Shown here: piece by piece, positions 10,920-34,890 of the stretch
How the letters are laid out: each line of letters begins with the position of its first letter
Numbering within the stretch: position 1 is the stretch's first letter
Assembly: GCA_030528885.1 (NCBI GenBank)
Contig: JAUMXY010000029.1
Coordinates: 1 to 35,434, forward strand
Direction of reading: 5' to 3'
DNA: 35,434 bases
Source: Bacteroidales bacterium
GTDB taxonomy: Bacteria > Bacteroidota > Bacteroidia > Bacteroidales > Bacteroidaceae
Made by a program: the position numbers and the translations under genes
The notes under the pieces: generated by a model
Database searches by the model: none
Told to the model about the DNA's origin: nothing
The model's input: the letters and a program-made list of their open reading frames with translations, nothing else

Positions 10920-12533
10920 TTAGTCCATAACAGGACGAATTGTGAGACCTCCCGAACGCATTGTTTTCCACTTATCCACCGTAAAAGACCTATCATCAAA
11001 ATAGAAATAGGATGCATCAGTAGATGACCAATAACAACCCCTATAACTATTATCGTTAGAAAGCCCTATTCCCAATCGGTAGCCTGTAGCAGGAAGAAAT
11101 ATACTATTCCCATTCCCTTTGATAAGATAGCCTAATACCCCATTATATTCTGTCCAAGTCCAATCACACTTCTCCCGTAATTCCTTAAATTCCTCTAATG
11201 TAGGCATTCGCCATTTCCCTCCCCAATTTAATCGAGCCGCATCGTATTTTTCAACACCACTAATATCAGAAGTGCCCAAATCATCATCAAAAGGAACTAT
11301 ATCAATATACCCTTTTTCACTATCATAATATTTATATGATACCTCTTTATACATATTTTTCTCTTCCGTCTCTCCCCATGAAAAATAACCACCAGGCTCC
11401 TCTGGAGAAGTTGCCCCCACATTCCAACTTGCCCACTTAACACTTAAACCTAAATCAACAGCATCAGATGGCTGGGAGTGAACGGCTGTTGTAAAACTAT
11501 AAACTTTCCCATAAACATAATTGCCATTCTTTTTTAAGAAAGAACGATAATAGTAAGTCGTACCACTTGATAGTCCTTCTAGAGAAACAGAAAATTTTCC
11601 AACTTTCAATGGAACATCCGAAAAAACAACGGTTGAATTATCTGCAACAGGATTGTCTTTAGTATTATAACAAACGCCCACGGAAAAAGGCTCTGAATTA
11701 TTTTCAAAATCCACATGACCTGAAAGCACCGCACTTTTTGTTGTAATGGAGGTGGCTGCCCCTGTCTTTATTCCATTTCCTTCTGAAAAAACAGGACGAA
11801 CTGGACAGCCATAGCAACGAGGAGCATTATCACTAAGAAGAGTACCTTTTAAGCTGTAAGCGTGATTACTATCGCCATTAACTAATGATGTAGAGAAATA
11901 GAAAACTGAATTCCCAACATTTTGGATATCCTCCTCATAACGACAACCTGCTGCAGGAAGAAAGATACTATTACCATTAGGTCCTGTGACAAGCTGGCCA
12001 CTAGTTCCATTATAATCGGTAATATATTCCCATTTACAAATGGACATAAGTTCTCTAAACTCTTCCTCTGTAGGCATACGCCAACCTCCACCCCACATTG
12101 TATACGCTACATCATCGGACAACTCAAGAACGCCTTTATTATCAACTATTCCAAACCAATCATCTTCACAATATTTAGTAAGTGAACCATCTTTGTACCA
12201 TTTATAATTTTCCCAATCATATACACTTTTCTCCTCCATCTCGCCCCAAGCATAATATCTCCCATAACCTTCTGGTGAATTTGCCCCAACATTCCAGCTA
12301 GCCCAGTTAACACTTAGACCCAAATCAACAATTTCTGCTACAGGAAAATCTGTTGGCCTAAAATCTTCATCAACACTCTTATCCGAGAACACAATACTAT
12401 CTACATCAGTATGAAAAAAATCATAACGTGAACCATCTTTGGTATAAACTTGGAATCCTTGAGCACAGAGATTCAGACAGAAAAAACAAGCCATTAAAAA
12501 AGCTGATTTTCGATTGATTGTTAAATTTTTCAT
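10920..12533 (-). CDS. Secreted protein with two FISUMP-like domains around an FN3-like domain
   Basis: A 537-aa exported protein (signal peptide to about residue 25). Two copies of the same domain, residues 68-250 and 358-537, each start with VDLGLSV.WASWNVGA and contain a WRMPT.EEF.EL motif and NSIFLPA.G.R. This is the Fibrobacter-succinogenes-major-paralogous (FISUMP) / DUF1566-like fold seen in surface proteins. Between them (258-350) lies a fibronectin-III-like domain with SSGTTYYYRSFL. Residues 26-51 carry the short VYTKDGSRYDFF...DSIVFSD element that I associate with Bacteroidales exported proteins. It overlaps the preceding gene by 4 nt (ATGA), so translation is probably coupled. No C-terminal sorting domain is visible. 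Ligand and role are unknown. Confidence 0.8.
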   Translation of the reverse strand: MKNLTINRKSAFLMACFFCLNLCAQGFQVYTKDGSRYDFFHTDVDSIVFSDKSVDEDFRPTDFPVAEIVDLGLSVNWASWNVGANSPEGYGRYYAWGEMEEKSVYDWENYKWYKDGSLTKYCEDDWFGIVDNKGVLELSDDVAYTMWGGGWRMPTEEEFRELMSICKWEYITDYNGTSGQLVTGPNGNSIFLPAAGCRYEEDIQNVGNSVFYFSTSLVNGDSNHAYSLKGTLLSDNAPRCYGCPVRPVFSEGNGIKTGAATSITTKSAVLSGHVDFENNSEPFSVGVCYNTKDNPVADNSTVVFSDVPLKVGKFSVSLEGLSSGTTYYYRSFLKKNGNYVYGKVYSFTTAVHSQPSDAVDLGLSVKWASWNVGATSPEEPGGYFSWGETEEKNMYKEVSYKYYDSEKGYIDIVPFDDDLGTSDISGVEKYDAARLNWGGKWRMPTLEEFKELREKCDWTWTEYNGVLGYLIKGNGNSIFLPATGYRLGIGLSNDNSYRGCYWSSTDASYFYFDDRSFTVDKWKTMRSGGLTIRPVMD

Positions 12534-13021
12534 CTCTTTATTAATATTTTATGTACTATACTTTTCGTTTTTACTATATAAACTCCTGCAGAAAGAGAGC
12601 TAATAGAGATAGAAGAGGAACCATCGGATGCTATGTTGCATACAACTTCTTGGCGACCATCTATATTATAAATTGAAACCTTTTCATTTGGACTAAAATC
12701 ATTGAAAATAAGAGTTTTATCTTGCTGTTGAATCTTACCTGCTGGGGAAGAAACTTCATCAACACGTGAAACCTTGCTTGTTCCAAATGTAAACTTATGA
12801 AGGTCCGCCAATGGGTAATTAATAGAAATATCTTCCGTTGTAATTACAAGATTATCCCCAGAATATGTTACCACAGGTCTCTCGTTTAAGCCATAAATTA
12901 TCTTTTCTCCATTGTGTGTCCAAACTTCTAATGTAACCACAATTGCCTCTTCTGCTCTTATTGCTAACGAGAAACTTAGCAAAAAACAGAGGAAAACACA
13001 TGTTTGACGAAAACTTTTCAT
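12530..13021 (-). CDS. Small secreted protein with T9SS-type C-terminal sorting domain
   Basis: About 163 aa starting at the ATG at 13021 (MKSFRQTC...); an upstream in-frame ATG at 13075 would put an AT-rich repeat before the signal peptide and is unlikely. It has a signal peptide (to about AIRAEE), a short beta-rich region with WTHNGEKIIYGL and LADLHKFTFG, and a C-terminal region (VSIYNIDGRQEVV...LSAGVYIVKT..IVHKILIKR) typical of type-A sorting domains. It is first in a two-gene operon with the FISUMP-domain protein and may share its surface function. No enzymatic motif is visible. Confidence 0.7.
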   Translation of the reverse strand: MKSFRQTCVFLCFLLSFSLAIRAEEAIVVTLEVWTHNGEKIIYGLNERPVVTYSGDNLVITTEDISINYPLADLHKFTFGTSKVSRVDEVSSPAGKIQQQDKTLIFNDFSPNEKVSIYNIDGRQEVVCNIASDGSSSISISSLSAGVYIVKTKSIVHKILIKR

Positions 13022-13072
13022 TCTAATTAAATTATTAAGGTTATTAAGGTTAAAAAACATCATTATTAGATA

Positions 13073-13087
13073 CAAATCTATAGATTT
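13073..13087 (-). promoter_or_regulatory. Possible -7 box overlapped by a perfect palindrome
   Basis: TAGATTTG (13080-13073 on the minus strand) fits TAnnTTTG and lies 52 nt upstream of the small secreted protein start. It overlaps AAATCTATAGATTT (13074-13087), a perfect 14-bp palindrome that could be an operator. No clear -33 box is seen. Confidence 0.35.
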
Positions 13088-13348
13088 TTTAGAACATCTT
13101 TTCTTTTAGAATGATTAAAAATTGTTAAATACAGAAAAACAAGTAAAAAAGGAGGGTTGGGTTCTTACAATTAGTCTTTTCAATTTAAATTGTCTCCGCT
13201 ATTATAATGTGGCTGGCTTGCTCATGCTGTTTCCACTGTCAAAGGATGGGGAATGCAACAAAAAATGTTTATTTGCAAAGTGGAAATTGCAATTGGAGGT
13301 GCCATACATGGTGCAAATGATTTCTGTCAACCCAACCACTTTTTCACC

Positions 13349-13376
13349 TCTTGGCGAAGGGGTGAAAATGGGCTTT
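13349..13376. repeat. Inverted repeat TTTTCACC / GGTGAAAA
   Basis: In the non-coding stretch left of the palindrome array, TTTTCACC and GGTGAAAA face each other across about 12 nt. It could form a hairpin, but no T tract marks it as a terminator. Function unknown. Confidence 0.4.
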
Positions 13377-13406
13377 TTCCACACCTCATTTTTATGCCTG
13401 CTCAGT

Positions 13407-13487
13407 CCCCAAAATCGGTGAGAGTCTCACCGACACAGAGGTAAGAGTCTCACCGATTCATAGGTGAGAGTCTCACCACTTTGGGGG
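13407..13487. repeat. 23-bp-period palindromic repeat array (locus B)
   Basis: Three 15-bp palindromes start at 13417, 13440 and 13463: GGTGAGAGTCTCACC, then a one-base variant, then a perfect copy. The period is exactly 23 bp with 8-nt spacers. The array is framed by CCCCAAAA on the left and CTTTGGGG on the right, so the whole block is also one large inverted repeat. The same unit occurs at 11-58. The surrounding 13088-13628 stretch carries no gene that I can support; open frames there lack recognisable features. Confidence 0.85.
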
Positions 13488-13599
13488 TGATTGGTGCAAG
13501 GTGAAAAGGGGAGTTGTTTCTATGCAACAAATGCTTGCTTTTTGGTAACATACGACCTTTTTCCCGACTTCAACGGATGGGTGTTCGGAGAAAAAGATT

Positions 13600-22976: not shown

Positions 22977-23010
22977 CAAAGATACCTGTTTTTGCCAACT
23001 ATGGCAAAAA
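22977..23010 (-). promoter_or_regulatory. Methyltransferase promoter with overlapping inverted repeat
   Basis: Minus strand TTTG (23008-23005), 20-bp spacer, TATCTTTG (22984-22977). A perfect inverted repeat TTTTTGCCA / TGGCAAAAA with a 4-nt loop (22989-23010) covers the -33 box and half of the spacer, so it could be an operator. Confidence 0.7.
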
Positions 23011-23145
23011 ATGCCATAGAAAAGTAAGAAAAAACAAGATTGCAGAATTTATTCCCCTGTATATAGCATCACGTTCCAGACTTTAGCACCTCTGAAAATA
23101 ACCCCTATGGAAAAGCTGAAGCTTCAAGAAAATTGAGAAATAACC

Positions 23146-23178
23146 ATTACCCGCTGGCGGAATTCGCCAACGGGTAAT
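23146..23178 (-). terminator. Terminator of the BspA-like gene
   Basis: ATTACCCG-C-TGGCG, loop GAATT, CGCCA-A-CGGGTAAT, starting 6 nt after the minus-strand stop at 23184. On that strand it is followed by a T-rich tract (TTATTTCTCAATTTTC). Confidence 0.85.
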
Positions 23179-23183
23179 TTGTC

Positions 23184-24167
23184 TTATTTTACTATGAATT
23201 TCTTGCCACCTTGGATATAGATGCCGCTGGGGAGGTTATCCGCATCCTTCATCCGTACACCTTGCAGGTTGTAGATAGGAAGATTAGAGGATTCTGTATC
23301 AAGAACGACATCTTCAATGCCTGTAGGATCATACTCTTTGATTTTCATAAAGTATTTCCACACATTGGCAGTTTGGTATGCAGCCAGTGAACCTTCGGGT
23401 ACATAGAGAGTGGTATAAATATAGTTGATAGTACCAAAACTGTTTTCGTACACTGAAGCAGGAGGTACAGGCGATGCCATAGTAAGGCTGGCAAGATTAC
23501 CGCAACCGTCGAAAGCATTCTCTTCGATGCCTGTTACGGAAGCGGGGATGAAGACGCTTGTAAGATTCGTATTATCACGGAATGCACTGTTTCCTATCAT
23601 GTATTTCTCGTCATTGTAATCCTCTGGCAGCGCCAATTCACTTTGGTTTCCAACGTATCCAGTCAACGCTGTTTTATAGAAAAAGAAATCGCCAATTTGT
23701 CCATCGACATTTACCACCTTATCGGCATAATAAGCAACGTCTCCATGACTGGCTGAGCCAGCAGAAATGTCAAGGGAGGAGCGGTTAATGACGGTTTTAA
23801 GTCCTATACATCCACCGAATGCATACTGTTCAATGCTTGTCATGGAATTTGGAATAGTGATGCTGGTAAGACCTTTACAGCCATAGAATGCTTGGATTCC
23901 AATGCTTGTCACACCTTCTGGAATGGTAATGTTGGTAAGTCCTGTACAATAAGCGTATTTGCAACTTGTTGTGTACCAATTTGTTTTGATTAAAACGGTA
24001 GGAAAGTGATTGCATGGATTTAATGGAGGATGAAAAAGACGAAGATTTAACGTATTTAACTTTTGTAAACCACAAAAATGGAGATGGTGTGCATATTTTG
24101 TACAGAAGTTATTCTCGCAAGGAATAACTCTGGCTATCTCCGCTCTTTTGTTGCCTACAAGGCACAA
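23184..24167 (-). pseudogene. BspA-like leucine-rich-repeat protein, 5' end lost at island border
   Basis: The frame encodes 327 aa, but only residues from about 71 on look like a real protein: LRR_5/BspA repeats (CTGLTNITIPEGVTSIGIQAF, GLTSITIPNSMTSIEQYAF, NLTSVFIPASVTGIEENAF), a VPEGSLAAYQTANVW segment, and a C-terminal sorting-domain-like tail (LPIYNLQGVRM...LPSGIYIQGGKKFIVK). The first 70 residues have no signal peptide, are rich in Cys/His, and do not fit the repeat. The break is at about 23,950. The gene therefore seems to have lost its start and export signal where the accessory island begins. Its own terminator remains. Intact relatives are surface adhesins. Confidence 0.75.
24014..24127 (+). 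CDS. Possible 37-aa gene remnant at the island's left edge
   Basis: A short plus-strand frame (MDLMEDEKDEDLTYLTF...ending SYSRKE) lies opposite the non-LRR part of the BspA-like frame. Its composition looks like a real protein end (acidic start, FVNHKNGDGVHILY), but no family is recognised and a promoter is not seen. It may be the tail of a gene cut during island formation, or chance. Confidence 0.25.
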   Translation: MDLMEDEKDEDLTYLTFVNHKNGDGVHILYRSYSRKE

Positions 24168-24246
24168 GAACTCTTAATAATTTTAAAAAACACATTCATA
24201 AATGTCTTTTCTGAATGAAATTTCTTATATTGTCGATTATTTTGTG

Positions 24247-24254
24247 TATCTTTG
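24247..24254 (+). promoter_or_regulatory. Promoter -7 box for the HTH-YhcG pair
   Basis: TATCTTTG, 24 nt upstream of the HTH gene start. A TTTC at 24221-24224 with a 22-bp spacer is a possible -33 box. Confidence 0.55.
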
Positions 24255-24278
24255 CGTTCAAATTAAAGATATTTAAAA

Positions 24279-24479
24279 ATGAAAGATTTGAATCGCATCA
24301 AAGTTGTACTCGTCGAAAAGAAACGGACGGCGAAGTGGCTTGCAGAGGAACTTGGTAAAAATCCGGCTACAGTCAGCAAATGGTGCACCAACGTTTCACA
24401 ACCTGACCTATACACATTAGACAAGATTGCAACACTGCTTGATATTGACAAGCGAGAACTCATAACAGGTAAAGATTAA
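24279..24479 (+). CDS. Small XRE-type HTH regulator
   Basis: A 66-aa protein that is a single helix-turn-helix domain: IKVVLVEKKRTAKWLAEELGKNPATVSKWCTNVSQPDLYTLDKIATLLDI. It resembles small controller proteins next to restriction-type or YhcG nucleases. It ends 4 nt before the nuclease gene and is probably its transcriptional controller; which DNA it binds is not known. Confidence 0.85.
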   Translation: MKDLNRIKVVLVEKKRTAKWLAEELGKNPATVSKWCTNVSQPDLYTLDKIATLLDIDKRELITGKD

Positions 24480-24483
24480 AGCT

Positions 24484-25536
24484 ATGACAGATATTGTACA
24501 GATTCAAGAATCAGTGTATGATGCAATTCTGCGACAGGCTGTCGCAGTTATTGACAGGACAAGAGCAATGGTGGCAACAACGGTGTGTTCCGCCATCGGT
24601 ACCGCTCATTGGGAAATAGGAAAAATACTTCACGACAAGAAGATTGAAAGTAAGCATGGAAGCGGTGTGGTAAATCGTTTGTCCTTTGACTTAAAGCAAC
24701 GTTATCCACAGATGGGAGTTTCTCCAAGAAACCTGTGGGACATGAAGAAGTTTTATGAACGGTTCTGTGGCAGCGATCCAAAACTGCGACAAGCTGTCGC
24801 AGTTTTACCATGGGGACATACTCTGACCTTGATGCGCAAGTTTGGAAACGATGATAATACCATATTATATTACGCGCAGGAGATTACTTCAAAAGGGTGG
24901 AATCGTGAACTTCTTTCCAGTGCCATCTCTTTGCAGATGCACAAGAGAAAGAATGAGCCATCGGACAACAACTTTGAGCAGACACTACCTGCCTCTCAGG
25001 CAATGTTTGCCAATGAAGTGTTCCGAAGCGGTTATAATCTGGGATTCCTTGGGGTTAAAGACCCCATCTTGGAAACGGAACTTGAAGCCCGACTGGTAGA
25101 GAAGGTAAAGCAATTCCTTTTGGAACTTGGCAAAGGCTTCACTTATATTGGTAATCAGCATGTACTTGAATATAATGGAAAACGAAGCAAAGTTGACATG
25201 CTTTTCTTCCATCGTGGACTACACTGCCTTGTTGCCATTGATTTGAAGATTGGTGAATTCAGACCAGAATATGCAGGCAAAATGAATTATTACTTGTCAT
25301 TGCTTGACCGTCTGGAACGCAGAGAAGACGAAAATCGCTCTATCGGCATTATTCTTTGTGCTGAGAAAGATCGTGTGGAGGTGGAGTTAGCATTGGAGGA
25401 TATGGGCAAACCCATTGGGGTGGCAGATTATCAACTGATTCTGCCACAAGAAGAATTAAAGAAAGTAGTAGCAGAAGAAATGGAAGCTTTTGGTAAGGAA
25501 CATCCTATTCAAATCGAAAAGGAGGAAAATTCATAG
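24484..25536 (+). CDS. YhcG-family (DUF1016) PD-(D/E)XK nuclease
   Basis: A 350-aa protein with the DUF1016 N-terminal helical domain (about 10-170, including WEIGKIL, LSFDLKQRYP, SPRNLWDMKKFY, LPWGHTLTLMRK) and a C-terminal nuclease domain (about 180-340). The PD-(D/E)XK core is KVDMLFFHRGLHCLVAIDLKIGEF, with the first Asp in VDML and the D-x-K in IDLKIG. Such proteins are common in restriction and defence islands. The gene contains a short repeat at protein level (LRQAVAV twice, near residues 16 and 101) that comes from two near-identical DNA palindromes (24529-24547, 24781-24805). Biological target unknown. Confidence 0.88.
   Translation: MTDIVQIQESVYDAILRQAVAVIDRTRAMVATTVCSAIGTAHWEIGKILHDKKIESKHGSGVVNRLSFDLKQRYPQMGVSPRNLWDMKKFYERFCGSDPKLRQAVAVLPWGHTLTLMRKFGNDDNTILYYAQEITSKGWNRELLSSAISLQMHKRKNEPSDNNFEQTLPASQAMFANEVFRSGYNLGFLGVKDPILETELEARLVEKVKQFLLELGKGFTYIGNQHVLEYNGKRSKVDMLFFHRGLHCLVAIDLKIGEFRPEYAGKMNYYLSLLDRLERREDENRSIGIILCAEKDRVEVELALEDMGKPIGVADYQLILPQEELKKVVAEEMEAFGKEHPIQIEKEENS
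24529..24547. repeat. Palindrome in YhcG gene, copy 1
   Basis: CTGCGACAG-G-CTGTCGCAG, perfect 9-bp arms around one base. A near copy lies 252 bp downstream in the same gene and the same reading frame. Confidence 0.6.
24781..24805. repeat. Palindrome in YhcG gene, copy 2
   Basis: AAACTGCGACA, loop AGC, TGTCGCAGTTT: 11-bp arms. The core differs from copy 1 by one base. Confidence 0.6.
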
Positions 25537-25644
25537 AAATAAGGTGCTCATTCAATTATCGCAAATGGTTAGATTGGTGCCATGTAACTTCTTGTCTATA
25601 TAGTTCATAATTGATGTAACGGATGAATCTTCAATAATAGTGAT

Positions 25645-26700
25645 ATGAACATTCCTCAAAATATTATTGTTCGTTTAAATGAACTTCCCATCGAAGAGGT
25701 AGCTGAAAAACTTGGTTTAGAGGTTAGAAGGCATAAAGCTCTTTGTTTTAAGCATAGCGACCACAATCCCAGCATCACATTCTCCACGTCTAAGAACATA
25801 TATAGATGTTGGGTATGTGGAGTTGGAGGTGGTACTATTAAACTGGTACAGGACAAGGAGGGATGGAACTTCCAAGAGGCATGTATATGGCTTGGTCAAA
25901 ATTTTAATGTCTGGTGGCCTGAAGGACAAACAGAAAGAAATATCATTAAAAAAACGCCTCTTCAAAAAGTACATATAACCAAGCATAAAGAAGAAACTCT
26001 GGTGTTTGATAAAGAGATTTATACTTGGATAATCAATAACACAACGCTTCTAGAACCTGCTAAATCATTTCTATATAAAGAACGGCATCTTAATGAAGTC
26101 ATTGTGCAGAACCTGCGAATTGCCTCAGTTGTTAATTCTTTGGATATGGTAGATGCTCTAGTCAAGAGGTTTGGGGAGGAAACTTGCTTGAAAACTGGAC
26201 TTATTAGACGAAGTAACTATGGGATGCACTTTTATTTCTACACACCGTGCTTATTATTTCCCTACTACGATCAGGATGGGAGTCTAATTGGGATACAATC
26301 AAGATATTTGGGCACCAACGAAAAAGCCCCACGGTTTCAATTCATGTCATCACAAAAGACAAGATTGTATAATTTACCAATACTAAACAGTCTTAATAGA
26401 GGTGATAAACTGTACATTAGTGAAGGAATTACTGACTGTTTGGCTTTATTATCGGATGGTTTGAATGCGGTAGCGATACCCAGTGCAACGATTCTGCCGT
26501 TGGAAGATTTGATATTGTTAAAAAACTACGAATTACATATGTATCCAGATCGAGATGAAGCAGGACAAAAAGCTTTTATGGCTTTACGGCGTTTCTTCAT
26601 CAATCACTATTCAACGGTAAGAGCTGAAGCTTTACCCGAGGGAGTTAAAGATTATTGCGATTATTATATCAAAAAGCAGGAAATATATGGAAAAGAATAA
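25645..26700 (+). CDS. DnaG-like primase (CHC2 zinc finger plus Toprim)
   Basis: A 351-aa minimal primase. The zinc-binding set is Cys34, His37, Cys55, Cys58 with spacing C-x2-H-x17-C-x2-C, the same as in bacterial DnaG. Next to it are NPSITFSTSKNIYRCWVCG and VGGGTIKLV, as in DnaG zinc domains. The Toprim domain has the metal-binding Glu260 (ISEGITD) and Asp302/Asp304 (YPDRDEAG), all present. The DnaG C-terminal helicase-binding domain is absent. The stop overlaps the next gene by 14 nt, and that gene overlaps the reverse transcriptase by 14 nt, so the three form one operon. A role in making primers for the RT is inference; a mobile-element replication primase is the alternative. The 108-nt gap before it shows no clear promoter or hairpin. 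Confidence 0.88.
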   Translation: MNIPQNIIVRLNELPIEEVAEKLGLEVRRHKALCFKHSDHNPSITFSTSKNIYRCWVCGVGGGTIKLVQDKEGWNFQEACIWLGQNFNVWWPEGQTERNIIKKTPLQKVHITKHKEETLVFDKEIYTWIINNTTLLEPAKSFLYKERHLNEVIVQNLRIASVVNSLDMVDALVKRFGEETCLKTGLIRRSNYGMHFYFYTPCLLFPYYDQDGSLIGIQSRYLGTNEKAPRFQFMSSQKTRLYNLPILNSLNRGDKLYISEGITDCLALLSDGLNAVAIPSATILPLEDLILLKNYELHMYPDRDEAGQKAFMALRRFFINHYSTVRAEALPEGVKDYCDYYIKKQEIYGKE

Positions 26701-27376
26701 CAAAAAGGCTGATGTGAAAAGGGTAAATTATTCCTTTGACATGCTGCGTAATGACATACTAACAGCGCCGACAGAGGACAATGAAAAGCTTGAGACTGGC
26801 GACAAATATCTGCGTGAGTACCAATCGAAGTTAATTGTGGCTCAAATGCTGTCTTATTTGGCAGAATCATACGAAACAGAAAACTATAAAGATAACGAAC
26901 TGTTAAGAAATGCTATTGAAACAAAAGTGGATGGCGACGAACAATTGTCTGGTTTCTTATTTTTTGTTTCTCAAAATCCACAATTTGACTATTCGTGGAA
27001 TTACATGAGGAAATGCAGAACTAACTATATAGAATTTCTTGTTAATTCTATTCGCTTTCTTAATAATGTACTTGTTGACATTAATTTGCTAACTGGTAAA
27101 CCATGGTCCGGAAACAACATTCATGTGGTATTTCATAACATTCTGGATGTAGAACTTACTAGTGAAGAACCATTTGTGAAGGCTCGTTTGCTTTGGGAAA
27201 ACTTTTATCATTTGGTAACGGTTAAGAACGATTATGATATTATTGTAAAAGCCAACGATACTTTATTAAAGGCCAGTGGTAGGAAAGAGCCCTCTGATAT
27301 GAAAAAGCTCATAGATTCTGTTTTTGAAATGGTAAATAACGAATCAAAGAAAATTACAGAAAATGAAAATGTTTGA
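26687..27376 (+). CDS. Unknown 229-aa protein between primase and RT
   Basis: I do not recognise a family. The protein is mostly charged and probably helical, without signal peptide, membrane segment, or cysteine motif. Notable stretches are DKYLREYQSKLIVAQMLSYLAESYE, a QLSGFLFFVSQNPQFDYSWNYM segment and IHVVFHNILDVELTSEEPFVKARLLWENFYHL. It overlaps both neighbours by 14 nt, which suggests translational coupling and a role as a partner or adaptor of the primase or the RT protein. No catalytic residues can be suggested. Confidence 0.75.
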   Translation: MEKNNKKADVKRVNYSFDMLRNDILTAPTEDNEKLETGDKYLREYQSKLIVAQMLSYLAESYETENYKDNELLRNAIETKVDGDEQLSGFLFFVSQNPQFDYSWNYMRKCRTNYIEFLVNSIRFLNNVLVDINLLTGKPWSGNNIHVVFHNILDVELTSEEPFVKARLLWENFYHLVTVKNDYDIIVKANDTLLKASGRKEPSDMKKLIDSVFEMVNNESKKITENENV

Positions 27377-30300
27377 TAAGATATTAGACGAACGGAATAT
27401 CTTCAATTCGATATTCTGCATGGAATCGTATGTGTTCGATAAAGGGTTATTGGACACATCGAAACCTATATATCTCCATAATGAAGGCAATGTGGAGGAA
27501 ACGATTGCAGCCAATGATCTCGAATTATATTATGCACTCGCTGATAAGCATAATATAGACTTGATTTCTAAGGTTATAAAATGTTGCCATCAACAGTTGG
27601 AATGGGTGTTGTCAGACAAGAAAAACTTGTTTGATGTAACAGTATATTTCAAAATCAAGAAATACGAAGAAAACAAATTGGACTTCCGTCCGATGCACAC
27701 GGCAAGACTGATAGATTTGATTTGTATGGTAAGTATCTTGAACTGTTTGATGTTTGATGACGACTTAGATAAAGGGGTTAGAAAACTATCAGACTTGTCT
27801 AAATTGCTGCCCCATAATTTCTATGGAAATATTCCTTGTACGAATGTTCAGTATTTATTTCACAAGTGGCAGACAAAATACAAAGAGTATACCGATGAGA
27901 TTATAGAACACTGTAGGGCATACCAAAAGAACCACAACTATCTGACAGAAGTAAGTTTAGATATCAAAAATTTCTTTCCATCTATTTCTCCTAAGATGCT
28001 GTATGACTACATTACAAGCAAACTATCAAAAACTTACAAGGACGACAAAAAGGAACTAAGCACAGCAGTAGTCAAGTTATTGTATTTCAACATATCAAAA
28101 GAGAACATCGAGCCATGGAAAGAGTATTATTATCCTGAAGGGACTGACTTATTTGGCACGAATCAATATATGAATTATGGAATACCACAAGGGTTGCCTC
28201 AATCATACTTCTTTGGCAACCTTTGCATGATAGAGGTTAAACGTCTTTTGATGCAAGACAAGACCTTTAGAGGAGATGCCTATTTCTATGTTGACGACTC
28301 AGTAATATATATCCAGTCTAAATTGGATGAGGATAAGTTTAAGAATAGAATTGATGCACTTAATGATAGCTTAAAAGAGAAATGCGAGAATGCAAAAAAA
28401 GACAATAATACACTCCCATATTATGTCAATGAAGACAGCCTTGCTTTTCAATCTAAATTAGATTATACGATTAAATTCCACGAAAAAGGGAAAAGTACTT
28501 TTACTCATATAGATGATGCGGACAACCAATATGGGCCAATAGCAAATATAACTCGGGAAACATACATGAATTCGGATCTATCGTATAATTTGGATGAGAT
28601 AGACGATCATGTGTCTTTAGTGAAATTGAAAGCTCTAGATAAAGTTATTTCTCGTGAAATTGGCAAACTTGTCGATAAACAGGATAAAGCAGAAAAAGAA
28701 GGAAAGAACGGTGATGCGCTCGCTTCTAAACTTAAACTTTTGCGAAGGTTTAAGAAGTTTTTCCTTTATCGCAATCGGCTATTGAAAATCAGAGAAGAAG
28801 GTAATCCAGATTTAGACAATTTCAGTGAACGTTTCTTAGAGAATGCTACTGATCCCGAAAAATTCTTCGAACAGTATGAAGAGGATATCTTCCAGACGGA
28901 ATATCGTCTTATTATCCAGAATCTTAGGAAAGAAGAGGCTGAAGATTTCAAGGAGAAGATAATTGAGTTCGAAAAACAGTTACTATCTAAATGTAATGTT
29001 AATATACAAGGGATACAAGATTCCTTGTTCTATGCTAAAGATGTTGAGACATCTTGTAAAATAAAATCAATGTCCCAGGATTCTTATGTTTCGCTGATAC
29101 GATGGGCCAGAGAGAACTTTAAGGGGCTAAAATGTATGGAGTCAGATAAGCAATTGGGTAAGTTGCGGGGATTTATGTCTAATGTAAAGACGGAGGCCAA
29201 AGGCACAAAAACCAAGGACTGCATATACAAAATGCAAGAACAAGGCTTTGAAGAGGCACATTTTACAAAATTTGTGATGAATGCCTCAGCAGAATATCAG
29301 CGTAAGATATTGAATGTGTTTTTTTCAGAAATCATAGATGTCATTCCTTCGGATTCACTGGCATTATCAAAAAGGAATGCCAGACGATTTAAGTATGTAG
29401 AACTTAGAATATTAGCCTATTTAAGGAATAAAAACTTTGATTTAGAGCGATTTGAAGAGTTTGTAGAACATATCAATGAAAAAGACATCTCCAACCAAAT
29501 GGGAATTGATATTGGAGTGCTTGAAGTATTGAATATCTTCATCAAGAATGTACGTAATCCAGAATGGGTGGATTCGTTGATTGTGACCCATCGACTCACG
29601 AAAGGATTGTGGTACAATGGTTCTAAATTTTTAAATTCATATACGCTCCATAATGAGGAACATGCAGTGACTCTTATCACAAAATCGTTAGAACTAACGA
29701 ATAGAATAGACTATTTTGCACTAAAGAATGTGGACTATTATATTCTTTTTCTGGCGTGCTATTTGCACGACATCAGCATGGTCATTCATCCAGATTTGGG
29801 TAGGTTAAGTTCTGAAAGTGGAAAGAATATGACTTTGATTTCGGACTTAATGAGTCAAATGCAAAATGAGGTCAGAAAATTTGATTCGATAGACTATACT
29901 GGTAAAAAGGACTCTCGTTATAAAGATGTTGGTAATTTCTTAATCAAGGTGTTCAATGAGGTGTATGGGTATTTCGAGGCTTTGGTTAGAGATAACCATG
30001 CCAAGGATAGTGCCAAGTTTATTCGTGAACGATCAAACTCTTTATTAAACTATTTAGAGCCGACATTGTTGTCTTTTGTGGCAAAAGTATCAGAGAGCCA
30101 TGGATATGATGTAATGGATGTTTATGGTCTCAAGTCTAGGGCTCAAGATGATACTGTAAGTTTGAAATACTTGATGATTCTCATCAGATTGGCAGACTTA
30201 CTTGATGTGGCAAATGATAGAGTAAACTATCATTTGTTGAAACAAAATTTGAGAAATTTGTCAACCACATCAAAGTTTCATTGGATATCACATCTGGTGA

Positions 30301-30734
30301 CGGATAAAATAGTACTAAAAACAGATTATATCACCGATGAAAATGCTGAAATGGGAGACAAACCTATTACCGAGGAAATAAACATAGAACTTCACTTGAA
30401 TGTGAAGCAATTGACAGTGTCTAAAAACACCAAAAAATGTAATGGGTGTAAATTAGAAGAAAGCGAAAAGAAGGATGATTGCCTTCATATTAGAATTGTA
30501 GGTGGTCTTGATTCTTCTGATGAGTGTACAGAAAAATTTTGCACCGTGCTCTGTCGCTGGATGATGCGGAAGCATGACTGGTTAATCAAAGAACTGATTG
30601 CGTTGAACGATTATCTCTATTCGGTAAATAATTCGTTGTTCAAAACAAAGATAAACTTCATTATATACTATCGTGATGAAATGAGGTTAGATGCAGATAT
30701 GTTTGACAGTGTTCAAGAGTATTTAGAAGAGTAA
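27363..30734 (+). CDS. Reverse transcriptase fused to HD phosphohydrolase domain (defence-type RT candidate)
   Basis: A 1123-aa fusion. The RT domain (about 60-420) shows motif A VSLDIKNFFPSI (Asp200), motif B GIPQGLPQS (273-281) and motif C FYVDDSVIY (Asp311, Asp312), so it should be catalytically complete. It resembles the Abi/unknown-group RTs used in anti-phage defence rather than group II introns; no maturase domain is seen. Residues 420-740 are helical and unassigned. The C-terminal HD domain (about 745-1000) has His763 and His767 (TLHNEEH), His802-Asp803 (YLHDIS), His879 (DNHAKDSAKFI), His913 and Asp945 (RLADLLD), the pattern of HD-CE-type conflict-system hydrolases. Numbering is from the ATG at 27363; 27369 is also possible. 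I cannot place it in a named DRT type. Confidence 0.88.
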   Translation: MKMFDKILDERNIFNSIFCMESYVFDKGLLDTSKPIYLHNEGNVEETIAANDLELYYALADKHNIDLISKVIKCCHQQLEWVLSDKKNLFDVTVYFKIKKYEENKLDFRPMHTARLIDLICMVSILNCLMFDDDLDKGVRKLSDLSKLLPHNFYGNIPCTNVQYLFHKWQTKYKEYTDEIIEHCRAYQKNHNYLTEVSLDIKNFFPSISPKMLYDYITSKLSKTYKDDKKELSTAVVKLLYFNISKENIEPWKEYYYPEGTDLFGTNQYMNYGIPQGLPQSYFFGNLCMIEVKRLLMQDKTFRGDAYFYVDDSVIYIQSKLDEDKFKNRIDALNDSLKEKCENAKKDNNTLPYYVNEDSLAFQSKLDYTIKFHEKGKSTFTHIDDADNQYGPIANITRETYMNSDLSYNLDEIDDHVSLVKLKALDKVISREIGKLVDKQDKAEKEGKNGDALASKLKLLRRFKKFFLYRNRLLKIREEGNPDLDNFSERFLENATDPEKFFEQYEEDIFQTEYRLIIQNLRKEEAEDFKEKIIEFEKQLLSKCNVNIQGIQDSLFYAKDVETSCKIKSMSQDSYVSLIRWARENFKGLKCMESDKQLGKLRGFMSNVKTEAKGTKTKDCIYKMQEQGFEEAHFTKFVMNASAEYQRKILNVFFSEIIDVIPSDSLALSKRNARRFKYVELRILAYLRNKNFDLERFEEFVEHINEKDISNQMGIDIGVLEVLNIFIKNVRNPEWVDSLIVTHRLTKGLWYNGSKFLNSYTLHNEEHAVTLITKSLELTNRIDYFALKNVDYYILFLACYLHDISMVIHPDLGRLSSESGKNMTLISDLMSQMQNEVRKFDSIDYTGKKDSRYKDVGNFLIKVFNEVYGYFEALVRDNHAKDSAKFIRERSNSLLNYLEPTLLSFVAKVSESHGYDVMDVYGLKSRAQDDTVSLKYLMILIRLADLLDVANDRVNYHLLKQNLRNLSTTSKFHWISHLVTDKIVLKTDYITDENAEMGDKPITEEINIELHLNVKQLTVSKNTKKCNGCKLEESEKKDDCLHIRIVGGLDSSDECTEKFCTVLCRWMMRKHDWLIKELIALNDYLYSVNNSLFKTKINFIIYYRDEMRLDADMFDSVQEYLEE

Positions 30735-30832
30735 AAGCCAGTCGCTTTGAAAAACTAAATGTTATTAATAGCATCAATGTCGTGATAATTTGAGATGTAT
30801 AAAACCTAGTTTGATGATAATGATTCATTGCT

Positions 30833-31096
30833 ATGACACATCTACCGAATAAGCACTTTAATTCCTACAAGGAGGGGCTGGACCTGGAGTTCCTGCGGGC
30901 GTACTGCATGGAGTATGGGGAACGGCGGTCGTTCGAGCGGGGCGAGACGCTGGAGGAGGCCGGGAGAGCCGGCGTAGTGGGTGGGCCTACGTGGCGCGGA
31001 TGCTTCAAATACGTGACGCGTGGCTACTGGCTACAGCAAGGCTGGCACCAGAACGCATCAAGGGCAACGTTTTTGATGGCCGTAAGCATCCGTTGA
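30833..31096 (+). pseudogene. Crp/Fnr-family regulator, decayed 5' fragment (copy 1)
   Basis: The first 62 or so residues (NKHFNSYKEGLDLEFLRAYCME...ERRSFERGETLEEAG...RGCFKYVTRG) read like the N-terminal cyclic-nucleotide-binding fold of a Crp/Fnr protein. Around residues 47-53 the expected RWVGYVAR-type segment is present only in another frame, which points to two compensating frameshifts. After VTRG the sequence stops resembling the family and ends at a stop codon. The 5' 60 bp repeat at 35094-35153 with one mismatch. It is much more GC-rich than the RT operon just upstream. It cannot make a working regulator. Confidence 0.75.
30854..30913 (+). repeat. 60-bp direct repeat, left copy
   Basis: Matches 35094-35153 in 59 of 60 positions (single mismatch at 30900). 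It lies in the 5' end of the Crp/Fnr-like fragment and, with its partner, brackets a 4.2-kb block of three genes. Confidence 0.9.
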
Positions 31097-31115
31097 AACA
31101 CCTATTCAAATCAAC

Positions 31116-32012
31116 TTATATGACATTTGCGATTTCGTCTCTATTCAAAAATTTGAATATCGTATGAGGATACAACTTATAATGTTTCCTATCCAATAAG
31201 AACGACGGATCAATGTTTTCCAAGAAATGCGTTTCATCAAGTATCTCTCTAAAATAATAATGACCTTCCTTATTTTTGCCATATTTCGAAATGGCATCAT
31301 AGAAAATCAAACAGAGTTCTTCGTTCGATAGCTGAGCTTGTAGAAGGTTCAAATATCTGTCTCTCAATTTAATATCATTCTTGTTGTATTCATCGTCAAC
31401 TACAAACTTAATTGTATTGAAGATATATCTATACATGTATCCAACATTACAATCGATAGACTCTATATAGCTTTCATATTCTGCTGCCAACAATCCTTGT
31501 AACTGTTCAATGGAAGCAATGTTGGCGCTAACAGGAACAAATGAAGATGTAAATTCGGCCAGATTGTTATCCGAGTTGAGATGAGTTCTATACGAGTCCC
31601 TGAAGTTATTGTAATACTCAATCAGGTTCCTAGCATTAGTATGATTATAGTTTGAACAAATATTTGCATTTACGGTATCTTGTACCTGTTTGAGCATTCC
31701 TAGAATATTGAAATAGGTGGTTTCAAAACGCGCTTTATCACTTTGCTCTTTGGTTACGCGGAGTTGTTCTCTCTGTTCCCTGAATGTAATGAATAAAAAT
31801 AATGTGGCAGTAAAAGTAAATATAATTCCTATAGTGCCCCACAAGAAATCACCTATATTGTCAGATAATTGTTCATACACATTGTCACTAACAAATGCCC
31901 AAGAATAACCATGTAACTGCCATTGTTTAAAAACAATATAAGAATAGAAGCCCCAAAGTACAACTCCTATAATAATACTTGCTAATGCAATCTTTGTCAA
32001 CAAATTTTTCAT
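31116..32012 (-). CDS. Putative phage abortive infection protein (PutAbiC-like), membrane-bound
   Basis: A 298-aa protein with two membrane segments (about 8-28 and 55-78), then a charged coil (FREQREQLRVTKEQSDKARFETTYFNILGML) and a soluble helical domain containing YMYRYIFNTIKFV and LSNEELCLIFYDAISKYG. This layout and the coil-to-FETTYFN sequence match the putative AbiC family. The start codon lies 4 nt after the stop of the preceding gene, so the pair is a transcriptional unit. Anti-phage function is inferred from the family and the island; no assay-backed mechanism is known to me. Confidence 0.75.
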   Translation of the reverse strand: MKNLLTKIALASIIIGVVLWGFYSYIVFKQWQLHGYSWAFVSDNVYEQLSDNIGDFLWGTIGIIFTFTATLFLFITFREQREQLRVTKEQSDKARFETTYFNILGMLKQVQDTVNANICSNYNHTNARNLIEYYNNFRDSYRTHLNSDNNLAEFTSSFVPVSANIASIEQLQGLLAAEYESYIESIDCNVGYMYRYIFNTIKFVVDDEYNKNDIKLRDRYLNLLQAQLSNEELCLIFYDAISKYGKNKEGHYYFREILDETHFLENIDPSFLLDRKHYKLYPHTIFKFLNRDEIANVI

Positions 32013-32016
32013 GTTT

Positions 32017-33021
32017 TTATCTTACATTGAATTGTTGTTGAATGAAACTAATCAACTCGTTGGCCTTACCGTCTACAAAAGAATATGTAGGATACCTGTT
32101 CGGTCCTAGAACTACATTGGTTGAAATGTCCATACTCATACCTAAAGATTGAACATCTTGTAGTGAAAGGACTTTGTCTTGTCCATCTATTTTTACAGTT
32201 ATCGCAATATCACTACAAGACAAGTCCTCCTCTATCACATAGAGTGTATTAGCGTCATTTCTCTTATTTCTAATCCAATTGAGAAATTCAGAAATGCGCA
32301 TATATTGATTAATTCCAATATTATATGTTATTGTCGTAGAGATACCTTCGTTGTTTATTGTATTACCAGATATTCTTGAAATACTAAGGTCGTCTTTGGT
32401 AACTTTACGCAATTCTATCTTTTTTGCTTCATATCGAAGTGTTTGCATCTTTCGTTGGACTAATGCATCTATTGATAGAGGAGCTATTCTTAGAGTATAT
32501 AGTCCGTCACTTGGACTTGCTTGATAAAACTTAAGAATCGCATTATTCAATACTGTCATTATTCCATAATTACTGATTTTTTCAATCAAAAGAAAACCAA
32601 TATTTGAATTCTCTGGAATATAGAACATGAAATAGAATGGTTTCATTAACGCCTCTCCAGCACCTTTTTGAAATTTTAGCTCGCCTGTTGATATGTCAAC
32701 CCCATCTTCTTGAGTACCATAATCCCCAGATTCAATTATACCAGATAAGTAACGACCTCTTCGGTATAAATGATATGTGCCGTCAGGCTTACGCGAAAGT
32801 CTATAAGCGTTACCTTGTTGCGCATTGGGTTCAGCATCAGTATTAACTGGAACATGTTGATCGCCACGTGCCACATCTTGTTTCCACGATGTTATCATAG
32901 TGTCCATATACTCCAAAAAATCTTGTCCATTGTTAAAGTCTGATAGAACTTGTCTATCATTCTTATTTCCATATGTATGGATTGTGATTGCGTAAACCGC
33001 TAATGAAAATGTTTTAGCCAT
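32017..33021 (-). CDS. Unknown partner of the AbiC-like protein
   Basis: About 334 aa from the ATG at 33021 (MAKTFSLAVYAITIHTYG); an ATG 7 codons upstream is in frame but less likely. I do not recognise a family. It is probably soluble and of mixed alpha/beta type: a start resembling a beta strand, then GNAYRLSRKPDGTYHLYRRGRYLSG, a central FYFMFYIPENSNIGFLLIEKIS...TVLNNAILKFY, and a C-terminal part with NIGINQYMRISEFLNWIRNKR. No signal peptide or metal motif. Being first in the two-gene unit, it may be the sensor or regulator of the membrane protein; that is inference. Confidence 0.7.
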   Translation of the reverse strand: MAKTFSLAVYAITIHTYGNKNDRQVLSDFNNGQDFLEYMDTMITSWKQDVARGDQHVPVNTDAEPNAQQGNAYRLSRKPDGTYHLYRRGRYLSGIIESGDYGTQEDGVDISTGELKFQKGAGEALMKPFYFMFYIPENSNIGFLLIEKISNYGIMTVLNNAILKFYQASPSDGLYTLRIAPLSIDALVQRKMQTLRYEAKKIELRKVTKDDLSISRISGNTINNEGISTTITYNIGINQYMRISEFLNWIRNKRNDANTLYVIEEDLSCSDIAITVKIDGQDKVLSLQDVQSLGMSMDISTNVVLGPNRYPTYSFVDGKANELISFIQQQFNVR

Positions 33022-33087
33022 AATAATAAATTTTAATATCAACGCAGTATTGTTCTGCGCATGTCGTCATATTGAAAGAGAAAAGAA

Positions 33088-33111
33088 CTGAGGGCTTGTT
33101 TCATCCCTCAG
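33088..33111 (-). terminator. Terminator-like hairpin upstream of the AbiC-like module
   Basis: CTGAGGG, 10-nt loop, CCCTCAG, followed on the minus strand by a pyrimidine-rich tract (TTCTTTTCTCTTTC). It stands 67 nt before the unknown partner gene, so it is either the terminator of a lost upstream gene or an attenuator. The rest of 33022-33501 has only short, unrecognisable frames (for example 33121-33216 on the minus strand). Confidence 0.5.
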
Positions 33112-33501
33112 CCGGCCGATTCAGCCTTTGATTATCTGTCTGATGTAGTGGTATATTGTTCTGATATCGTCTGGAACGGATATCATTTCCATTATATCTG
33201 GCTTGCCAACATATAACTACCCACCTACATAAAGTAGATGCAATATTGAACATACAAACTTCGCAGAGTCTTCAAAGCTCTGCCCTTTCACTCTTTGAGC
33301 TAGTTGGGCAAACATTTGCCCAATCTAGCATAAAAATTTTTTTGTTTTCATAATTAAAACTTATTTTTATTCCTGCAACCTATGTCCCGCAGTAAGGACT
33401 TCATGAATATCTCCTTCAACTGTCCGCCCATCCACCCAGCTCTTGCAGTCTATCCAGAGATTTCAATCTATTTTCTGTGACAATGGATACGGCTTTAATG
33501 T

Positions 33502-34890
33502 TTACACGTTTTTAGAAGCTACGTACATCATCCACGCCCCATCATTATCCTTGCCTTCATGCTTCAGAATACCTTTCTTCTGCATTGCAGAGAGGTCACG
33601 TTCGATGGTGCGTTGGCTCACCGACAGCATCTCCGACATTTTTCGGCCTGTTATTGTCGGAGACTCTTTGATAAGATTGAGTATTTTCTGCTGACGCTCA
33701 GTGAGTTTCGTCTCCGACACGTCTCCGTCATGGTATCCGACATTCGGAGTGTCGGAAGAGGCAAAGATGATGGTCTGGAATTGGGTCGGAGTAGATTTGA
33801 ACTTGGGTTTCAGTTCGTCTTTATATCCTTCCAATGCTTTGGTCTCATTACAAATGCGTGTGAGTCCGCTGCCTCGCTTTTCCATATAATCAAGCTGAGC
33901 CATTACGTTTGCAAGGATAGGATTACGCCTTTCGGAAGAAACGTCTGCGATGTCTAAGTTCTGAATCAGCATACCATTGTACATTCCACCAGGGGATGTA
34001 ACGGTGAGACGGTCATCGTAGATGTCAAGATGCACTTCGCCACCCATTACTGTGTAATCACGATGGATGAAGTGGTTTACCATTGCCTCCAGAACAGCTC
34101 GTTCCGCATACTCTGGTTTGTTCTTTCGCCCATTAGGTAACTTCTCCCAGCCTTTCTTCGTGTTGGACTTCACAAAGTTCATAGCCTCACGAAGCAACAT
34201 GAGGACATTGCCTGTAAACTCTGCATCGTTGATGGCGTCGCCCTTTTCTTTTCCATCCCAACGAGTGCAATAAAGACGAGACTGCCAGAGTGGGCAATCA
34301 TCGGCAAACAATGCGCCAGCATTCGTTAGGTTCCCAGCACCTGTTACCAGTCCAAACGACAAGAGATATTTCTTGTCCCATTCTTGTTTGGTGCGGTCTT
34401 TGAACGAGTTCGCCAATATCGTGAAAGAATAGTCTTCAACTTTATAATCCGTATGAAGGGAATCAAAAGTTTTGTTGGAACCTTTCAGTACCAAACGTAC
34501 CATCTGTTCTGCCGTGGCAGGAAGACTCTCATCACCGACACGGACAAAGGCTATGCGCTGACCATCACCAACGTAGTAATATGGGGTATAATGTCCGACG
34601 TTGACTTTGAGTTGCAAGATGTGTAGTCCATCTATATCATGGGGAATCATCTCCACCTCTGGCAGGGGATCCATGTAATCACGAATCTTACTACTGACAG
34701 CTTCGCAAACATGCTGCACGTCATCAAGACCTTTGACGATGCCATCATTATCAACGCCAAAGAAAAGGGAACCACCCAAACCATTAGCAAAGGCGCTTAC
34801 GCTCTTCAACCAACTCTTAGGTTTCTTTTCTTCAAACATCACCTTGAAGTCGTATGCAGTACATTCCACTATCAGAGTCTTTAATTCCAT
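33502..34890 (-). CDS. AlbA_2/ATP-binding protein with C-terminal winged helix
   Basis: A 462-aa protein of the divergent AAA-4/AlbA_2 (Schlafen-like) type. The N-terminal AlbA_2 domain (about 15-135) has KSVSAFANGLGGSLFFGVDNDGIVKGLDD and FVRVGDESLPAT. The middle part carries a GHKL-like (HATPase_c_4) region: EAMVNHFIHRDYTVMGGEVHLDIYDDRLTVTSPGGM and RRNPILANVMAQLDYMEKRGSGLTRI. The C-terminus (about 395-455) is a winged helix (TERQQKILNLIKESPTITGRKMSEML...RTIERDLSAMQKKG). Such proteins are frequent in genomic islands and may act as transcription regulators or nucleic-acid-binding switches; exact role unknown. Confidence 0.85.
   Translation of the reverse strand: MELKTLIVECTAYDFKVMFEEKKPKSWLKSVSAFANGLGGSLFFGVDNDGIVKGLDDVQHVCEAVSSKIRDYMDPLPEVEMIPHDIDGLHILQLKVNVGHYTPYYYVGDGQRIAFVRVGDESLPATAEQMVRLVLKGSNKTFDSLHTDYKVEDYSFTILANSFKDRTKQEWDKKYLLSFGLVTGAGNLTNAGALFADDCPLWQSRLYCTRWDGKEKGDAINDAEFTGNVLMLLREAMNFVKSNTKKGWEKLPNGRKNKPEYAERAVLEAMVNHFIHRDYTVMGGEVHLDIYDDRLTVTSPGGMYNGMLIQNLDIADVSSERRNPILANVMAQLDYMEKRGSGLTRICNETKALEGYKDELKPKFKSTPTQFQTIIFASSDTPNVGYHDGDVSETKLTERQQKILNLIKESPTITGRKMSEMLSVSQRTIERDLSAMQKKGILKHEGKDNDGAWMMYVASKNV

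Follow-up and report, generated by a model that had tools for sequence, protein, structure and literature searches.

A UG24-type, class-3-like reverse transcriptase cassette of a Bacteroidales bacterium, with a DnaG-like primase gene that may be exchangeable

Class 3 of the UG/Abi DRTs is defined by a reverse transcriptase (RT) combined with a nitrilase or a phosphohydrolase (PMC13275509). As described there, the class 3 systems DRT1 and DRT5 carry out protein-primed, template-free DNA synthesis; DRT1 requires the active sites of both its RT and its nitrilase, and the DNA adduct on the protein sets its oligomer and effector state. The priming serine 402 of DRT1 is not conserved across the other class 3 DRTs (PMC13275509). 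DRT7 (UG10) brings together an RT and a primase within one system, the primase being an RT-fused primase-polymerase, and DRT2, DRT3 and DRT9 contain ncRNA (PMC13213688). Retron-Eco2 has an RT with a Toprim partner (PMC12405507; also named in PMC13275509). UG24 is a family already held in PADLOC (PDLC03762) and is named in one relevant paper, within a table of classifier results (PMC8934634). A literature search, with the group-defining paper (Mestre 2022) lying outside it, found no study of, or phage experiment on, UG24; nor did it turn up a published account of how any phosphohydrolase-bearing class 3 DRT works.

The stretch of DNA analyzed here (the window) comprises 35,434 nt from a Bacteroidales bacterium and carries three plus-strand genes at 25645-26700, 26687-27376 and 27363-30734, with a 14-nt overlap at each junction. 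The original prediction of a trio formed by a DnaG-like gene, a small gene and an RT-HD gene joined by such overlaps was confirmed, and every residue it had named was found in its place. The features are as follows.

25645..26700, + strand: gene 1, RT-associated type of DnaG-like primase, 351 aa (PADLOC RTasDnaG-like, 371 bits; Pfam CHC2/Toprim)
25744..25818, + strand: gene 1 CHC2 zinc ligands C34, H37, C55 and C58 (full set in 11/12 alignment rows)
26413..26664, + strand: gene 1 Toprim domain, residues 257-340, with catalytic E260, D264, D302, D304 and D336 (Pfam Toprim_2; five residues invariant in 12/12 rows)
26687..27376, + strand: gene 2, small protein of 229 aa (precedes the RT gene in 26/26 assessable loci)
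27363..30734, + strand: gene 3, UG24 RT, helical region, HD-CE phosphohydrolase and Cys cluster, 1123 aa (PADLOC RT_UG24)
27960..27962, + strand: gene 3 RT catalytic Asp200 (invariant in 26/26 rows)
28287..28298, + strand: gene 3 RT catalytic YVDD, residues 309-312 (invariant in 26/26 rows)
28563..28565, + strand: gene 3 residue 401, candidate protein-priming hydroxyl (Ser or Tyr in every row)
29637..30323, + strand: gene 3 HD-CE domain, residues 759-987, with H763, H767, H802, D803, H879, H913 and D945 (Pfam PF24391; residues invariant in 26/26 rows)
30438..30554, + strand: gene 3 cysteines C1026, C1055, C1060 and C1064, probable zinc site (alignment conservation)

Gene 3 matches PADLOC RT_UG24 (PDLC03762, labeled DRT) over its full length at 1211.9 bits, residues 2-1122 aligning with positions 3-1035 of the 1036 in the model, HD part included, and its HD-CE domain is recognized by Pfam PF24391 (E 3.3e-26); both matches support the earlier reading of an HD-bearing RT of the Abi/UG type. 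The claim that the trio is undescribed did not hold. Gene 3 is RT_UG24 and gene 1 matches RTasDnaG-like, an RT-associated protein of PADLOC, both being labeled DRT, so that by HMM names the RT falls largely to a named DRT type that includes a primase and an HD domain. With the RT group and its DnaG-like associate already listed in PADLOC, the trio does not represent a novel kind of system. The PADLOC RT_UG29 model also starts with a DnaG-like stretch. The window's small partner is not recognized by PADLOC.

The domain combination that defines class 3, an RT joined to a phosphohydrolase, is present in gene 3 via HD-CE, and UG24 may be called a class-3-like DRT, a placement that comes from domain make-up, while matches to the other RT models, none above 38 bits for gene 3, are mixed: UG17 (38.0 bits), Drt1a (37.4), a CRISPR-type RT model (32.8) and a retron model (31.8) for gene 3, and a CRISPR-type model (39.6), Drt1a (37.6) and UG6 (29) for the RT of a related locus, L059. 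UG24 resembles DRT1 (UG1) in having an RT and a hydrolase in one protein, and Drt1a is among its far weaker PADLOC matches; DRT1, however, has a nitrilase where UG24 has HD, and is not known to have a small partner or primase. With DRT7, UG24 shares an RT and a primase, but the UG24 primase is DnaG-like, separate and optional, and no primase-polymerase domain of the AEP kind fused to the window's RT was found in a Pfam scan. Retron-Eco2 differs in being an ncRNA-based retron whose Toprim effector lies within one protein. It is not known to contain a CHC2 or HD part.

Altogether, 27 distinct UG24 loci were assembled (the window, L038-L045, L046, L047-L059 and L100-L103), 18 of Bacteroidota type, as assigned by organism label or place in the RT tree, and nine from Bacillota. 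A single scan of genome contigs, limited by pattern, supplied 20 of the loci, and duplicates were merged (L006 with the place of L049, L008 with L046, L096 with L057, L097 with L059). The loci are not independent, because L049, L058, L039 and L051, all four of Bacteroidota type, are near copies of one another (92-98% nt). Since L046 has no upstream sequence and L041 holds only part of the small gene, 26 loci could be assessed for the small gene and 25 for the DnaG-like gene. A first RT alignment had 23 rows, 22 of them different; in the final alignment of 26 rows, L006 was dropped and L100-L103 were added, L058 (broken RT) and L046 (a copy of L008) being in neither. In the window's family, three of 201 genomes, among them the window's own, matched the UG24 profile over all or nearly all of its length; at E 0.001 the count was 22 of the 201, the others matching through RT or HD parts. 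A phylum sample of 395 genomes yielded a single match, which was again the window's genome, and the family of L059 yielded six among 387 genomes, including two known before. A UG24 RT was present on two viral contigs; none was found by tblastn in the phage and plasmid collections.

No family was assigned above cut-off to gene 2 in Pfam, PADLOC and further profile scans, and its AF2 model (pLDDT 79.7) gave no Foldseek match at E<=0.001. A small gene stands directly upstream of the UG24 RT in all 26 loci where the place is visible, overlapping the RT gene in most; it is broken in L051 and cut by the contig end in L041. The PADLOC model RTas1299 was matched by 5 of the 19 small partners scanned; among those scanned singly, three from Bacillota match it and three from Bacteroidota do not, and the window's protein gave no match to this model. 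Comparison of the Bacteroidota and RTas1299-type small proteins by hhalign was weak (three runs gave E 0.044, 0.009 and 0.003, at probabilities of 1 to 11%), with 0 of 200 column-permuted controls reaching that score. The small protein of L052 groups with those of Bacteroidota (E 5e-7, profile comparison), and distances between RTs correlate with distances between small proteins (r 0.94, 19 rows). Gene 2 is probably a divergent relative of RTas1299. Presence in every assessable locus, the same place, the L052 link, the permutation controls and the correlated distances suggest that the small protein is a constant partner of the UG24 RT.

The active-site residues of both RT and HD do not vary across the 26 aligned RT rows, and the core pair of small protein and RT-HD protein, as judged from sequence comparison, is inherited together with these sites intact. 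Residue 401 is serine in 21 rows and tyrosine in 5, and lies in a loop (395-413) with pLDDT <50 in the structure model; it is perhaps a protein-priming hydroxyl, only a guess because other class 3 DRTs do not keep the priming serine of DRT1 (PMC13275509). Toward the C-terminus, C1026 is kept in 26/26 rows and C1055, C1060 and C1064 in 25/26, with one gap (the frameshifted L051 was the gapped row here in an earlier alignment), and the four cysteines form a probable zinc site. In L051, L058 and L008 the UG24 RT copy has a split frame or an early stop, close to the N-terminus, suggesting occasional loss of the system, or else assembly errors.

Gene 1 contains the CHC2, RNAP core and Toprim parts of a replicative DnaG, with DNAG_N at 25.4 bits against a cut-off of 26; in the Pfam scan it has no C-terminal helicase-binding part, the protein stopping 11 residues past the Toprim match. 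Rather than being a copy of the host dnaG, it belongs to a kind of its own, as it scores 371 bits with RTasDnaG-like against 139.8 for the host's own DnaG, encoded on another contig (open frame 716 aa). With the equivalog TIGR01391, gene 1 reaches 109 bits, below the cut-off of 283.6, and the host gene 447. The DnaG-like gene is under purifying selection (dN 0.10 vs dS 0.64), and its distances follow those of the RT (r 0.92, 11 rows). Among side findings, L093 (7697-8782, minus strand) encodes a stand-alone DnaG-like protein of 361 aa (189 bits with RTasDnaG-like), apparently in a mobile element; the primase of the UG24 loci may derive from a protein of this type.

The original prediction expected the three-gene order to be conserved across genomes. 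The operon is kept in relatives, with the small gene in 26/26 loci, but the DnaG-like gene is found in only 14 of the 25 assessable loci, namely 14 of 16 of Bacteroidota type, so that it is the rule there, and 0 of 9 from Bacillota. The 11 loci that lack it are L042 and L052 from Bacteroidota and all nine from Bacillota. Seven of these 11 genomes, those of L100-L103 not included, were searched whole and hold only full-length DnaG elsewhere (open frames 594-706 aa). L042 has an RT 89% identical to that of the window, yet no DnaG-like gene. On the RT tree, which has an arbitrary root and some long branches and omits L100-L103, the DnaG-less rows require three changes, at least two of them forced by well-supported branches. 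These patterns suggest that the DnaG-like gene is an exchangeable extra of the UG24 cassette, and it matters in Bacteroidota-type loci, as indicated by purifying selection, co-inheritance and its presence in 14/16.

Other genes can stand in the first place. All four Lachnospiraceae loci L100-L103 encode before the small gene a protein of about 290 aa (42-44% identity to that of L102), with invariant R, S-x-S and E-x-E-x-LL reminiscent of an ADP-ribosyltransferase (ART). Its frame overlaps the small-gene frame in 4/4; counted from ATG starts, L102 has a 4-nt overlap, and in L100 and L101 its stop comes 29 and 119 nt ahead of the first small-gene ATG. One of the four gave an ADP-ribosyltransferase match in Pfam, below cut-off (E 0.012), and a PDB search with the protein gave no match; this ART-like gene was likely swapped in for the DnaG-like gene, the ART assignment being weak. 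A RES-like gene lies 36 and 39 nt upstream in L057 and L059 (E 0.017 and 0.045, below Pfam cut-offs) and a TIR gene 120 nt upstream in L054, exchanges that are treated as leads. No such enzyme was recognized by eye ahead of the small genes of L042, L052 and L055. Upstream of the DnaG-less pair of L042 (4978-8200), two radical-SAM-like genes and two short ORFs, one of them His-rich, were seen by eye. Beyond the RT gene in L045, a HEPN_RES + RES protein (12373-13596) starts 4 nt past the RT stop codon and is perhaps an added effector.

Comparison with relatives at the DNA level marks the limits of the cassette. DNA similarity between the window and L040 covers 25636-30736, from 9 nt before gene 1 to 2 nt after gene 3, and with L042 it covers 26686-30738, that is, the small gene and RT only, both blocks ending at most 4 nt from the RT stop; the block with L043 is 25644-30736, and between L045 and L053 only the operon is similar. 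Other pairs share more, with about 100 nt upstream in L044-L045, about 1.5 kb upstream in L057-L059, and kilobases of flank within the L049 group of near copies. Between the window and L040 or L042, no conserved ncRNA can be seen in the flanks, similarity ending <=10 nt from the common genes, and Rfam gave no match within 23000-33500 of the window. An ncRNA may still lie inside a reading frame or be too diverged for alignment.

In support of the original prediction, genes of defence families (PDC-S02, putAbiC and Schlafen-AlbA) adjoin the operon. A DUF1016/YhcG (PDC-S02) gene lies just upstream (24484-25536, + strand); a similar gene (82% nt) precedes the operon of L043, separated from it by a gap that does not align. 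Downstream are putAbiC (31116-32012, - strand, 2.8e-8), an unrecognized 340-aa protein (32017-33042) and an AlbA/Schlafen-HATPase gene (33502-34890, - strand), these downstream genes forming, by their predicted families, a small defence island. In one scan of hand-picked neighbor genes, used without a control set, 6/10 matched a PADLOC model at 1e-5, in some cases weakly. By eye, the UG24 operon of L039 and L049 stands among several tyrosine-recombinase-like genes, and a group II intron-type RT lies downstream of that of L039.

Taken together, the operon is tentatively read, at somewhat less than even confidence, as a UG24-type class-3-like DRT cassette in which a core of small protein and RT-HD protein, probably with protein-primed DNA controlling an HD effector, is accompanied by a swappable partner enzyme. 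This mechanism is proposed because UG24 follows the DRT1 plan (PMC13275509), with HD in place of the nitrilase, and because near relatives have no conserved flanking RNA in common. By analogy with DRT1, the RT would make template-free DNA attached to itself, without a dedicated ncRNA and perhaps on residue 401. The adduct, or an oligomer driven by it, would hold or arm the HD phosphohydrolase. The small protein may gate or sense, phage infection probably being read through it, and infection would release HD activity on nucleotides or nucleic acid, leading to cell arrest or death. The DnaG-like protein would be a captured mobile-element primase acting on the single-stranded product of the RT, by making a second strand or RNA patches; alternatively, it may be an extra effector, and an obligatory primer source it would not be. 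That UG24 is a modular immune machine, in which various enzymes have become attached to a small protein and an RT-HD switch and, in the window's branch, the mobile-element primase copies or decorates protein-linked DNA so that a second-strand or RNA-DNA product trips the HD domain, is considered doubtful.

The original prediction had the primase make an RNA primer from which the RT starts, with the HD domain as effector. The retention of the Toprim residues (12/12 rows) and zinc ligands (11/12), purifying selection, co-inheritance with the RT, the operon overlaps, the presence in 14/16 Bacteroidota-type loci and the DnaG-like start of the RT_UG29 model are all consistent with it. A fixed primer supplier is, however, hard to reconcile with a gene that is absent in 11/25 loci, seven of whose genomes hold only full-length DnaG, that is missing beside the 89% identical RT of L042, that lacks its zinc finger in L038 and that is replaced by another gene in four loci; class 3 RTs tested so far are, moreover, protein-primed (PMC13275509), and this explanation is considered improbable. 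Even less probable is ncRNA-templated cDNA synthesis as in class 2 DRTs and retrons, which the ncRNAs of DRT2, DRT3 and DRT9 (PMC13213688) and the flanks common to some relative pairs would allow, but which fits poorly with similarity confined to the genes in the window-L040 and window-L042 comparisons and with the empty Rfam scan.

Gene 1 could instead be an exchangeable effector as in retrons, the small protein and RT-HD protein acting as sensor and switch and the DnaG-like or ART-like protein being toxic. The same place does hold either a DnaG-like gene (Bacteroidota type) or a conserved ART-like gene (L100-L103), with weak RES-like genes in L057 and L059 and a TIR gene in L054. The ART and RES assignments, however, are below Pfam cut-offs, and inspection by eye showed no such enzyme in L042, L052 and L055, yet no row departs from the HD active site, which argues for HD itself as the effector; this role of gene 1 is regarded as rather unlikely.

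A constant small protein, an optional primase, an ART-like exchange and missing flanking RNA were not found in the literature searched, and parts of this may stand in Mestre 2022. For the preferred reading, that of a core pair with a swappable partner, the locus set defines the smallest unit (small protein + RT-HD) and names its key residues, and it suggests that the first gene of a UG24 cassette can be replaced. Natural versions with and without the primase exist in the window and L042, and the need of a DRT for a primase is therefore directly testable. If the primase does copy or decorate protein-linked DNA, UG24 would be a DRT whose single immune signal is assembled jointly by an RT and a primase of the bacterial replicative type.
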